DNA from: an uncultured Bacillota bacterium
Lineage (GTDB): Bacteria > Bacillota_I > Bacilli_A > Erysipelotrichales > Coprobacillaceae
Length of the DNA: 64,000 bases
Direction of reading: 5' to 3'
Assembly: GCA_949290865.1 (NCBI GenBank)
Contig: CASETM010000090.1
Coordinates: 1 to 64,000, forward strand
Shown: positions 1 through 40,946 of the stretch, piece after piece
Position numbering within the stretch: the stretch's first letter is position 1
Layout: every line of letters begins with the position of its first letter
The notes under the pieces: generated by a model
What the model was told of the DNA's origin: nothing
Databases searched by the model: none
Seen by the model: the letters and a program-made list of their open reading frames with translations, nothing else
Made by a program: the position numbers and the translations under genes

Positions 1-341
1 GATGTTTTATTATAATAAGGTGTAACGACCAGGATTGCATCTGCACCTTTTTCATTGGCGTATTTTGCTTTTTTCAAAGCCGTTGCCGTATCATTAGATC
101 CTGCTCCACAGATAACCTTGATACCTGTTCCTTTTGCCATTTCCATGACAATATCAAACAGTCTGAATTCTTCTTCAATCGTGATTGTTGCTGTTTCACC
201 AGTTGTTCCATTGACAAGCAGTGCCTGAACACCACCATCGATCATTCTTTGTACCTGTCTTTTAAAACCATCGTAATCTATATCCCCATTGTCATGCATG
301 GGCAATACGAGTGCTACCGCACTTCCTTCAAAAATCGTCAT
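1..341 (-). CDS. dapA: 4-hydroxy-tetrahydrodipicolinate synthase DapA (3' part beyond window edge)
   Basis: DapA condenses pyruvate with aspartate semialdehyde, the first committed step of lysine/diaminopimelate synthesis in the cytoplasm. Only the first 113 residues are in the window; the rest lies left of base 1. Seen: the pyruvate-site motif GTTGE at residues 45-49 and VTPYYNK at 106-112, whose second Tyr corresponds to the conserved catalytic-triad tyrosine of the family. The start ATG at 341 has GGAGG seven bases upstream. It begins 11 bases after the stop of the ACT-domain gene, so the two form one operon behind a lysine riboswitch. N-acetylneuraminate lyase is the related alternative, but the lysine riboswitch and the sequence favour DapA. 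Confidence 0.93.
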   Translation of the reverse strand, partial: MTIFEGSAVALVLPMHDNGDIDYDGFKRQVQRMIDGGVQALLVNGTTGETATITIEEEFRLFDIVMEMAKGTGIKVICGAGSNDTATALKKAKYANEKGADAILVVTPYYNKT

Positions 342-898: not shown

Positions 899-929
899 AC
901 ATAACCTGTTATCCAATGATAGCACACCA

Positions 930-1085
930 TTATCAATGATAATGACAGTTGCATAGGTATTCCCTAGACACCCAGAAATATATTTCATGCAATAAACATA
1001 TTTCTTCGGCAAGTGCTCCTCCCTTATCATCTTGTTGCATCAAATAACAATAACTTCATAACATCTTGCGCCTCTATCTTACTTT
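930..1085 (-). promoter_or_regulatory. lysine riboswitch (L box)
   Basis: Reading the minus strand, conserved L-box elements occur in order: AGAGGCGCAAG near 1078-1068, GGGAGGAGCACTTGCCGAAG near 1022-1003, CTGGGTGTC near 980-970 and ACTGTCA near 949-943. Their order and spacing match the five-helix lysine aptamer. It sits directly upstream of the ACT protein-dapA operon and is followed by an intrinsic terminator, which fits lysine-triggered transcription termination. The 845-1170 gap contains this element and the start-proximal regions of the divergent operons, and no gene. Confidence 0.88.
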
Positions 1086-35874: not shown

Positions 35875-36069
35875 AAGAATAAAAAAAGCAAAGATTGGAA
35901 AATGTCAGAGGAAAGTATTTAGAGAGCTGATGGATGGTGAAAATCAGTATACGGAACTTTGAGTGATGGGCCATGAGCTGCTATTTTGAATAGTTAGAAA
36001 TAGACGTTAACTGCGTTAAAGTTTTGAGTGACACAAACATGTGTAAAAAAGGTGGTACCGCGATCATTC
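35875..36069 (+). promoter_or_regulatory. T-box leader (Met) of metG
   Basis: Stem I carries AGAGAGCTGATGGATGGTGAAAATCAG-type sequence (35918-35945), and a specifier region GAGTGATGGGCCATGAG with ATG (Met) codons. The T-box AAGGTGGTACCGCG (36049-36062) is followed by a terminator. Uncharged tRNA-Met is expected to favour read-through into metG. With parS 3 and the promoter this accounts for the whole 327-base gap. Confidence 0.9.
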
Positions 36070-36093
36070 GTCCTTTTATAAGGACTTTTTTTA
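36070..36093 (+). terminator. T-box terminator
   Basis: Stem GTCCTT/AAGGAC, followed by seven T, downstream of the T-box sequence. Confidence 0.85.
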
Positions 36094-38132: not shown

Positions 38133-38290
38133 TTACAGGTTTTATATATATCATATATAAATGAAAAAGGAATCAGGTGAAAAACCTGAGCTGTCCCGCA
38201 GCCGTAATGTGGAGAATAAGCGACAATGTCACTGGGAAACTGGGAAGACGCTTAAACGAGGAAGCAGAGCCGGAATACTTGCCTGTATCT
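38133..38290 (+). promoter_or_regulatory. cobalamin (vitamin B12) riboswitch
   Basis: All conserved parts appear in order: GGAATCAGGTGAAAAACCTG, GCTGTCCCGCAGCCGTAAT, CACTGGGAAACTGGGAAG, ACGAGGAAGCAGAGCCGG and the B12-box-like AGCCGGAATACTTGCC. It is followed by a terminator hairpin and then the helical-toroid/DUF4430/ECF operon, so that operon should be expressed when cobalamin is scarce. No gene lies in the 38058-38396 gap. Confidence 0.95.
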
Positions 38291-38334
38291 AAGAATAGAC
38301 TTTACGGAGTATAAAGTAGTTCTTCTAGATATAT

Positions 38335-38363
38335 AACTGGGATAACTGCGCCCAGTTTTTATT
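38335..38363 (+). terminator. terminator of the cobalamin riboswitch
   Basis: Stem AACTGGG/CCCAGTT (38335-38341, 38351-38357), then TTTATTT. A competing small hairpin (ACTTTA/TAAAGT near 38299-38318) lies between aptamer and terminator. Confidence 0.75.
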
Positions 38364-38396
38364 TGGGAGTTATTTGATTTGAAAGGGGAAAGGAAT

Positions 38397-39671
38397 ATGA
38401 AAAAATTAGTTAGCAGTTTGCTTGTATGTACAATTGCTGTGATGATGAGTTTTTCATCAATAGGTATTGTTCAAGCTAAACAACAGACACATGAAGAATT
38501 TTTACAGGAAGTAGAAAGAAAGTTAAAAAATGCTGGAGAATATGTTTATGGAGGACAATCATTTACTGTTAGTTCATCATCTGATTTTTTAAATTACATA
38601 AGATCTGGAGCAGACATCAATGATCAATTAAAAAAAGATTATTTAAATGATTTAAAGGATCATTTAAATAAATACAATGGAAAAATTGTAGCAACATTCT
38701 ATGGTAATGAAAATGAAAACGATTTAGGACTTTACGGAGCAGTAATTTTGGTTTTAAAAGAATTAGAAGTCAATCCAGAAAATTTTGAAGGATATAATAT
38801 TGTCAACACCTTTGAAAATGTTGATTTTTCTATAGCTAGTGCAAATCCATATTATTATCGTTTAGCTATTGAAGCTGCAAATCCTGAATATAAAATTAAA
38901 ATTACTGATCAATTTATTGAGGGGTATTATACATTTGGAAAAGGAATGGATAATTTTGGTTATTCTTGTGATAATACAAGTATGTTTTTAACTTCACTTT
39001 TAACAGTAAAAGATAATTATGCTCAATATGTAACTGATGCCAAAAAAATAATTTTAAACTATGAAAAAGAAAATGGTTTTATTGGTGAGGAAATGTATAC
39101 AAATTATGTCAATTCTGATTCAACTGCCTATGCAATGATGGCATTTTCAGCCATAGGAGATGTAAATCAGTCATACAGAATATATTCATTACTAATTCAA
39201 AATTTTGAAACAGAAAATTCTGGATTATTTGGTTATAAAGATAATCAAAATGTAAGTGAATATTCTACAAAAGATGCAGCTATATCATTATATTATTTTA
39301 AAGAATTTATTAAAAATGGTGATCATGTTTATACAGTTGTAAGTCGTGACGATGCAACATGTTATCAAGATGGAAAAGAAATTAGGGAATGTATGATTTG
39401 TGGTCATCAGGAAACAACTGTATTAAAACAGCTTGACCATCAATATGTTACAACTGTTGTCAATCCAACTGTAAATAATCAAGGTTATACATTACATAAA
39501 TGCAGTTTATGTGGTGATGAATATAAAGATCAATTTGTTACAGCCATGCAAAATAGTGCTATTCAATCTGTTGATACATCAGATCAAACTAATATTTTAT
39601 TATATGTAAGTGCTGTTATAATTTCAGGAATGAGTATTATTTATTTATTACGAAAAAAATCAGTATTATAA
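38397..39671 (+). CDS. secreted helical-toroid protein, probable alpha domain of a B12-capture complex
   Basis: A 424-residue surface protein: signal peptide (cleavage near Ala27), a helical region (about 30-300) whose repeats resemble the prenyltransferase/terpenoid-cyclase alpha-alpha toroid (NSDSTAYAMMAFSAIGD, YSTKDAAISLYYFKEF), two extracellular Cys-pair modules (Cys322, ECMIC 332-335, CSLC 369-372), and a C-terminal membrane helix (about 401-420) with RKKS tail. The same toroid fold forms the N-terminal domain of intrinsic factor and transcobalamin. Behind a B12 riboswitch and before a DUF4430 protein, it is inferred to bind cobalamin outside the membrane. Start 38397 has AAAGG upstream. 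Confidence 0.75.
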   Translation: MKKLVSSLLVCTIAVMMSFSSIGIVQAKQQTHEEFLQEVERKLKNAGEYVYGGQSFTVSSSSDFLNYIRSGADINDQLKKDYLNDLKDHLNKYNGKIVATFYGNENENDLGLYGAVILVLKELEVNPENFEGYNIVNTFENVDFSIASANPYYYRLAIEAANPEYKIKITDQFIEGYYTFGKGMDNFGYSCDNTSMFLTSLLTVKDNYAQYVTDAKKIILNYEKENGFIGEEMYTNYVNSDSTAYAMMAFSAIGDVNQSYRIYSLLIQNFETENSGLFGYKDNQNVSEYSTKDAAISLYYFKEFIKNGDHVYTVVSRDDATCYQDGKEIRECMICGHQETTVLKQLDHQYVTTVVNPTVNNQGYTLHKCSLCGDEYKDQFVTAMQNSAIQSVDTSDQTNILLYVSAVIISGMSIIYLLRKKSVL

Positions 39672-39716
39672 GAAATACATAATTTTTTATGTGCTTTTTC
39701 TATAGGAGTTAGGATA

Positions 39717-40397
39717 ATGAATAAAACAAGAAAGTATTTAATTGTATTTTTGAGTATTTGTTTTGTATTTATCGTAACGGTTGGAATTAAACAGACTATT
39801 TTTTCTGATCAGATTAATAGTTCAAGTACAATAAATAAAGAAGAAAAAACTGCGACGACAAATTCAAAAGAAAAAGATGCAAATACAGAACAACAAAGTA
39901 GTGAGTCTGAAATAAATGAAACAAAAAAAGAAGAAAATAATAATACTTCAATAACTGATACTTCACAAGAAAATACAACAAAACAAAAACAGAAAAACAA
40001 TAATACACAACAGCAAACTGATGATACTAATACAACACAACAGACAGTACAGGAATCACAGAATAATAATCAGCAATCTGAAGAAACAATAATTTATAAT
40101 ATGAATATTAAGGGCAAAGGAAACTATCTTCTTCAAACAAATATATCAATTTATGATGGACAAACAGTTTATGATGTATTAGAAAAGGTAACTCATCAAA
40201 ATAATATAGAATTAGGAGCTGAAAATGGAGAATATGGAATTTACGTTTATAATATTGGTGGATTAAAAGCTGCTAATTATGGAGGAAATTCTAATAATGG
40301 CTGGGTTTATACAATTAATGGAAAACCTGTTGGTTTAGGAGCTGGAGAACAAACATTAAAGTCCACAGATAGAATAGAATGGAAATATCTATATTAG
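39717..40397 (+). CDS. membrane-anchored DUF4430 (transcobalamin C-terminal-like) protein
   Basis: A 226-residue protein with an N-terminal membrane anchor (about 7-27) and no lipobox. A long Asn/Gln/Thr/Glu-rich linker (about 30-120) follows, then a DUF4430 domain (about 125-226) with DGQTVYDVLEKVT, YIYVYNIGGL-like, NNGWVYTINGKPVG and DRIEWKYLY. DUF4430 is homologous to the C-terminal beta domain of intrinsic factor/transcobalamin, which caps cobalamin. It is the second gene of the B12-riboswitch operon (45-base gap). The linker would let the domain reach the toroid partner at the cell surface. Confidence 0.85.
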   Translation: MNKTRKYLIVFLSICFVFIVTVGIKQTIFSDQINSSSTINKEEKTATTNSKEKDANTEQQSSESEINETKKEENNNTSITDTSQENTTKQKQKNNNTQQQTDDTNTTQQTVQESQNNNQQSEETIIYNMNIKGKGNYLLQTNISIYDGQTVYDVLEKVTHQNNIELGAENGEYGIYVYNIGGLKAANYGGNSNNGWVYTINGKPVGLGAGEQTLKSTDRIEWKYLY

Positions 40398-40406
40398 AGG
40401 TAAAAA

Positions 40407-40946
40407 ATGATAGAAATGACAAAAGTAAAAGAAATTGCTTTGATCAGTATCCTGGCAGCAGTTAATATTGCTTCACGTATTTATCTGCAGTTTTTACCAA
40501 ATTTCAAACCAGTCACATCGATCATTATTATTTCTGTAATGTTGTTTGGCTTGGCGTTTGGTGTGAAACTGGCAGTTGTCACAACAATTGTGTCTAATCT
40601 GTTTTTAGGTATGGGAACATGGACTTTCTTTCAAATCCTGGCCTGGGTGACTATCTGCTTATTAACGGATGCTTTTGTTGGTATCATAAGAAAAAGAGGA
40701 AAAGAACCACATATTCTGGTTATGGCTGTATTTGCTTTTTTGATGGGTTATGTGTTTGGTATCATTGTTTCTTTGGAACAGTTGATGATTGGTGGTTTTA
40801 GTTTATATATTGTCTATTATTTGGCGGGATTGCTTTTTGATACTTTTCATGCTGTTGGTAATTTTGTTTTCTATTTATTATGTGCACCAATCTTAATGAA
40901 ACTTTTTAAAAATGAATTAAATAAATCAGTATATACAATAAAATAA
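40407..40946 (+). CDS. ECF transporter S component, probably for cobalamin (CbrT-like)
   Basis: A 179-residue integral membrane protein with six predicted helices, and N-terminal IALISILAAVNIASRIYLQFLPNFKP, a typical ECF S-component opening. It binds the substrate and associates with a shared EcfA-EcfA'-EcfT module encoded elsewhere. Its place, nine bases after the DUF4430 gene in a cobalamin-riboswitch operon, makes cobalamin or a precursor the likely substrate. Confidence 0.85.
   Translation: MIEMTKVKEIALISILAAVNIASRIYLQFLPNFKPVTSIIIISVMLFGLAFGVKLAVVTTIVSNLFLGMGTWTFFQILAWVTICLLTDAFVGIIRKRGKEPHILVMAVFAFLMGYVFGIIVSLEQLMIGGFSLYIVYYLAGLLFDTFHAVGNFVFYLLCAPILMKLFKNELNKSVYTIK

Follow-up and report, generated by a model that had tools for sequence, protein, structure and literature searches.

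The system considered here lies in a 64,000-nt window (the whole stretch of DNA that was analysed) of contig CASETM010000090.1, assembly GCA_949290865.1, from an uncultured Bacillota bacterium of the Coprobacillaceae, a Faecalibacillus-related gut bacterium. The basic layout is given in Table 1: downstream of a cobalamin riboswitch and its terminator, three open reading frames follow one another on the same strand, separated by 45 and 9 nt, and encode a secreted toroid protein, a DUF4430 protein and the S component of an ECF transporter. The riboswitch is the sole cobalamin riboswitch of the whole genome, and the terminator hairpin folds with -12.9 kcal/mol (z -2.45). The trio is flanked by metG and a yggS-like gene, and the order of these flanks is unchanged in genomes of the same genus. 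Two further RNA elements lie in the window, a lysine riboswitch at 912-1084 (-) and a T-box leader at 35882-36078 (+), the latter upstream of metG.

A preliminary description of this DNA had named the cobalamin riboswitch and terminator and had placed all three genes in one operon. The RF00174 score of 103 bits and the folded hairpin bear out the first of these claims, and the shared strand, the short gaps and the recurrence of the trio in the family (below) bear out the second. Its further assignments, of a CbrT-type S component and of a DUF4430 protein with an N-terminal anchor and a long linker, hold as well, through kinship to 6FNP and through the Pfam match and the sequence itself, respectively.

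Table 1. Features of the operon and of the proteins that it encodes, with positions in the window.
Feature	Position	Strand	Basis or remark
Cobalamin riboswitch aptamer, RF00174	38120..38300	+	cmscan 103 bits, E 1.2e-24; gathering score 31.5
Riboswitch terminator, AACUGGG-9 nt-CCCAGUU stem and U-rich tract	stem 38335-38357, tract to 38367	+	RNA fold, sequence
Secreted alpha/alpha-toroid protein, 424 aa	38397..39671	+	ORF, AlphaFold, Foldseek PDB, profile, leave-out HMM
Signal peptide of toroid protein	residues about 1-27	+	within ORF 38397..39671
Toroid domain, residues 30-310, proposed cobalamin-binding half	38484..39326	+	AlphaFold pLDDT mostly 85-98
CxxC zinc-ribbon-like repeat segment, residues about 320-380	39354-39545	+	between toroid and anchor
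C-terminal surface signal, VDTSDQTN + hydrophobic segment + RKK, residues about 386-424	39552..39668	+	xTGD variant
DUF4430 protein, 226 aa	39717..40397	+	Pfam PF14478 E 1.6e-14, residues 148-224
DUF4430/SLBB domain (transcobalamin beta-domain-like), proposed second clamp half	40158..40388	+	Pfam search coordinates
CbrT-type ECF S component, 179 aa	40407..40946	+	family profile vs PDB; PF12822 E 2.3e-6, just below cut-off

The three encoded proteins

The S component gives a link to a transporter of known substrate. A profile of its family, which is highly conserved (72% mean column identity), matches CbrT (6FNP_A, residues 8-166 of 182) with E 9.5e-30, and no S component in the PDB other than CbrT 6FNP was matched. 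The homologous ECF-CbrT of Lactobacillus delbrueckii has been shown to import cobalamin and cobinamide (PMC5997447), and we take the protein of the window to be a putative cobalamin transporter by this kinship. That study dealt with the transporter alone, and the passages of it that were searched contain no mention of an intrinsic-factor-like extracellular clamp; what the window adds is a candidate for such a clamp. As in group II ECF systems, EcfT is encoded elsewhere in the genome: the window operon holds only the S gene, whereas the T and A genes lie within the operon in f9, f10 and f17 and in genera g4 and g8 of the family. MetH and CbiQ/EcfT are both present in the window's genome, and none of the family's 43 genomes has CbiC, by a search that is positive in 7 of 14 controls. 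Because CbiC is absent while MetH and EcfT are present, the host is probably a B12-using auxotroph with a shared ECF module.

In the DUF4430 protein, a hydrophobic N-terminal anchor is followed by a low-complexity linker of about 90 residues (about 31-120), which leads to the DUF4430 domain. This is the sole DUF4430 found in the window's genome, both by Pfam and by a profile of its own kind. The best PDB chain for the profile of its family is Transcobalamin-1 (4KKI), in a weak match (E 0.028). DUF4430 domains also occur in other settings. Lipoproteins with two or three of them in tandem are encoded at L038 (1546-2589), L048 (1490-3391) and L056; cobalamin riboswitches precede the L038 and L048 genes, and no toroid was detected with these. 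In Christensenella (L156, 21-3938), the gene directly 5' of a CbrT-like S component encodes a surface protein of 1305 aa that has a DUF4430 near its C-terminus.

By itself, the toroid protein matches nothing usable in Pfam, NCBIfam, PHROGs or the PDB, and only profiles of its relatives yield matches: one built from the protein and twelve relatives detects, among PDB structures, the toroid of squalene-hopene cyclase (E 4.9e-11) and others related to it. An HMM made without the window toroid and its sister still recovers the window toroid with E 1e-10, and one made from rows of its own family only does so at E 7e-6. Apart from the sister, its same-genus relatives are about 20-26% identical to it, a divergence so great that the ligand residues may differ. 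AlphaFold (35 rows) predicts a confident all-helical domain over residues 30-310. The matches of this model in the PDB by Foldseek are drimenyl diphosphate synthase and other terpene cyclases, the beta subunit of FTase and the toroids of complement C3/C4 (probability 1.00, E from 3.5e-4). The predicted fold is thus the alpha-alpha toroid that had been proposed. The window toroid's own best structural matches are terpene cyclases and complement, not intrinsic factor, and we count it against a role in B12 capture that terpene cyclases and complement have this fold too.

How the toroid protein is held at the surface is a separate matter. It had been described as secreted with a C-terminal membrane anchor; the secreted toroid stands, while the anchor may be of another type. 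Its C-terminal signal has a form common to many surface proteins of the genus, and a sortase is encoded in the genome. An xTGD-type signal together with a sortase means that the protein may be attached to the wall instead of the membrane, and from its sequence wall anchoring may be as likely as membrane anchoring. The VKTGDxTN-type signal, common at the C-terminus of many large surface proteins of the genus (L111-L130), is likely a family-specific sorting motif. The CxxC repeat segment, too, is found in unrelated surface proteins of the family. Matches of the toroid protein in close relatives cover mostly this segment and not the toroid, and many further matches in the family cover the C-terminal signal alone; both kinds were left out of the toroid counts that follow.

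Recurrence of the trio and fused homologues

Genomes of the class, the family and the phylum place these genes with B12 regulation. In the class (Bacilli, 395 genomes), a cobalamin riboswitch is followed, at a distance of less than 10 kb and on the same strand, by a DUF4430 gene in 79 of 83 genomes, where the 83 are a sample among the matches listed, each holding both elements. Within the family, 28 of 43 genomes have a full toroid, and in 27 of these 28 it shares an operon with a DUF4430 gene and an S gene, each on a separate chain; the order is toroid, DUF4430, S in a row in 22, and DUF4430, S, toroid in five of one genus. The remaining toroid genome has no DUF4430 within 1.5 kb, and no toroid-DUF4430 fusion was found in any of the 28. 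A second collection, of named genomes searched with the S component, gave 19 loci, among them Faecalibacillus, Massilimicrobiota, Longibaculum, Stoquefichus, Kandleria, Sharpea and an uncultured Clostridium, and 17 of them carry toroid, DUF4430 and S in that order.

Homologues under riboswitches for other ligands would speak for a different substrate, and none appeared in the scanned loci. In the 16 scanned loci of this collection, all riboswitches found are of the cobalamin or AdoCbl type, and in Kandleria, Sharpea and their kin, where a riboswitch was not detected, the trio directly follows MetH and its activation domain. This bears on the question of whether cobalamin is merely the effector of the riboswitch while the proteins handle another corrinoid (cobinamide or another cobamide) or a tetrapyrrole. 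CbrT is a transporter of cobinamide as well (PMC5997447), the fast change of the protein pair described below could mirror a shifting corrinoid specificity, and the toroid protein of Sharpea (L032, 4907-6364) matches PF07550, the Shr-like haemoglobin-interacting domain, at residues 356-401, before its anchor. Set against these points are the cobalamin riboswitch and the MetH linkage over many genera, and the operons examined contain no heme genes. We judge such a different ligand to be quite improbable.

The same genomic context answers another concern, namely that the toroid protein could be an enzyme, secreted and of the terpene-cyclase or glycosidase type, that has nothing to do with B12 capture. 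Taken singly, the protein does match terpene cyclases best, both in fold and in sequence. However, the toroid profile finds 24 matches in 295 genomes of the phylum, with a cobalamin riboswitch ahead of 19 and a riboswitch or a DUF4430 adjoining 22, so that the family is nearly restricted to cobalamin loci, and homologues of the toroid are fused to DUF4430. An enzyme of this kind is very hard to credit. A secreted terpene cyclase in particular was rejected on the genomic context and the lack of a DxDD motif in residues 30-310.

The fused homologues, with both domains on one chain, occur in other families of the class. There, a lipoprotein consists of a DUF4430 followed by a toroid, and its gene stands beside a second DUF4430 gene and the S gene. 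A toroid HMM restricted to sequences of the window's family recovers the top-scoring fusions with E 1e-12 to 1e-11. For one fusion, a predicted structure (mean pLDDT 87.6, pTM 0.81) was compared with the PDB, and its best matches are the transcobalamin beta domain, both apo and cyanocobalamin-bound, a DUF4430 structure of Ruminococcus gnavus and whole transcobalamin; intrinsic factor-cobalamin (2PMV) follows at a lower rank over 299 columns. The DUF4430 of the fusion reaches a TMt of 0.76 on the transcobalamin beta domain 5NO0. This comparison, run on a fused homologue, links the toroid and the DUF4430 domain alike to the B12 carriers of mammals. Intrinsic factor, transcobalamin and haptocorrin share with the window system a toroid and a DUF4430-like beta domain, but carry both on one polypeptide, whereas the window has two ORFs for separate, anchored chains. 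The bacterial fusions, with DUF4430 before toroid, have the reverse domain order of the mammalian proteins.

The fusions also raise the main rival to a two-chain clamp. In other families the DUF4430 encoded before S coexists with a complete fusion, and it could therefore be a docking factor and not the partner of the toroid. Uptake would then be sequential: the surface toroid, by itself or aided by further factors, would capture B12, and the DUF4430 protein would serve S as a lid or docking subunit in its own right. The Lactobacillales-type operons, with a DUF4430 beside S plus a fused DUF4430-toroid, fit this scheme, as do operons in which DUF4430 and S occur and no toroid was detected (L036, L053), or which have DUF4430 alone (L052). 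Yet the finding of one DUF4430 in the window's genome would leave the toroid without any other SLBB partner, and the split-type DUF4430s form a clade of their own (SH-aLRT 99), apart from fused DUF4430s and from those beside fusions. On this evidence, and on the co-divergence described next, we regard sequential uptake as unlikely. The separate clade and the presence of split toroids in several families also led us to reject a recent fission of a fused, Lactobacillales-type protein as the origin of the split form.

Co-divergence and fast change of the pair

Over 21 genomes of the family, the identity of the toroid follows that of the DUF4430 when S is held constant (partial Mantel r 0.61, 0 of 5000 permutations), whereas toroid and S given DUF4430 yield 0.09, with shared ancestry ignored in both figures. 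This co-divergence of toroid and DUF4430, in which S takes no part, stands against sequential uptake.

The pair also changes much faster than its surroundings. Between sister species, identity is 94-98% for the S component, about 41-45% for the toroid and 55-69% for the DUF4430 protein. In F. faecis and F. intestinalis (G003 and G004), DNA identity amounts to 90-98% as far as the signal peptide, 48-70% in the mature parts of toroid and DUF4430 (L017 vs L018, 1970-3905), 78-81% in the anchors between these mature domains and 83-95% again once the S gene begins. Signal peptide, anchors and S component are conserved while the mature domains diverge.

Two processes could produce such a pattern, import by recombination or fast evolution in place, and the two kinds of substitution help to tell them apart. 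For G003 vs G004, dN is 0.57 in the toroid, 0.04 in S and 0.02 in metG, and dS is 0.82, 0.67 and 0.30, respectively, giving a dN/dS of about 0.7 in the toroid and 0.06 in S. Because dS of the toroid lies near that of S while its dN is about 14 times as high, the data favour fast protein change in place over import by recombination, as judged from a codon alignment that is rough at 41% identity.

What might drive this change is a more tentative matter. The two halves of the clamp may be a matched and hypervariable surface pair that evolves jointly, an exposed B12 binder under diversifying pressure, and the candidate pressures would be a shifting cobamide specificity or the need to evade phages, bacteriocins or rivals that use the receptor to their advantage. 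We hold this explanation, matched pair and pressures together, as a possibility with the balance somewhat against it.

A candidate two-chain clamp for B12

We consider it probable that the operon encodes an intrinsic-factor-like B12 clamp, split into two chains, that feeds a CbrT-type importer and is repressed by B12. This reading draws on the riboswitch-headed operon and its gene order, the folds, the kinship of the S component to CbrT and its conservation, the recurrence of the trio, the linkage to MetH, the fusions, the marker of auxotrophy and the co-divergence of the pair. In the mechanism that we propose, scarce cobalamin would lead the riboswitch to let transcription through. The surface-anchored toroid and the membrane-tethered DUF4430 would form the two halves of the clamp on their separate chains, and the long linker would allow the DUF4430 domain to reach the toroid and close over the corrinoid, so that both chains would bind one cobalamin molecule between them. 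The DUF4430 arm would then carry the corrinoid down to the S component, which, together with the ECF T/A module shared within the cell, would import it to supply MetH. In this presumed hand-over to a membrane transporter, the system would differ from the mammalian carriers, which go to a receptor for endocytosis.

The general idea that a toroid and an SLBB domain scavenge B12 is not wholly new, since Burroughs et al. 2007 (PMC1796856) predicted it. That paper defines a transcobalamin clade of SLBB domains, notes toroid-SLBB fusions in low-GC Gram-positives without B12 synthesis, reports operons with CbiO/CbiQ and at times a second SLBB protein, and derives the animal transcobalamins from bacterial toroid-SLBB proteins. 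The likeness to our system is in the same two domains, secreted, in low-GC Gram-positive hosts lacking B12 synthesis; their genes lie near cobalt/ECF-type ABC genes, and the window operon has the CbrT-type S gene of an ECF transporter. The difference is that their toroid and SLBB domain are on one chain, whereas here there are two and the toroid escapes Pfam; the riboswitch, the CbrT-type S component and the link to MetH also go beyond what they described. The words riboswitch and ECF are absent from the text of the paper, and the available portion of its section on the clade makes no mention of a split toroid. We found no experimental or later description in the open literature. Against that literature, the split form, the riboswitch, the linkage to a CbrT-type S component and to MetH, and the hypervariable pair were not found described.

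If the two-chain clamp is real, it would reveal the initial half of the B12 uptake route used by many Gram-positive bacteria of the gut and would explain how importers of the CbrT type obtain so rare a ligand; no extracellular capture protein for them was found described in the literature searched. It would provide a two-part bacterial relative of intrinsic factor, the protein whose loss leads to pernicious anaemia, and with it a route to trace how animals acquired intrinsic factor. It would also point to surface proteins with which gut bacteria may compete, with each other and with their host, over cobamides.
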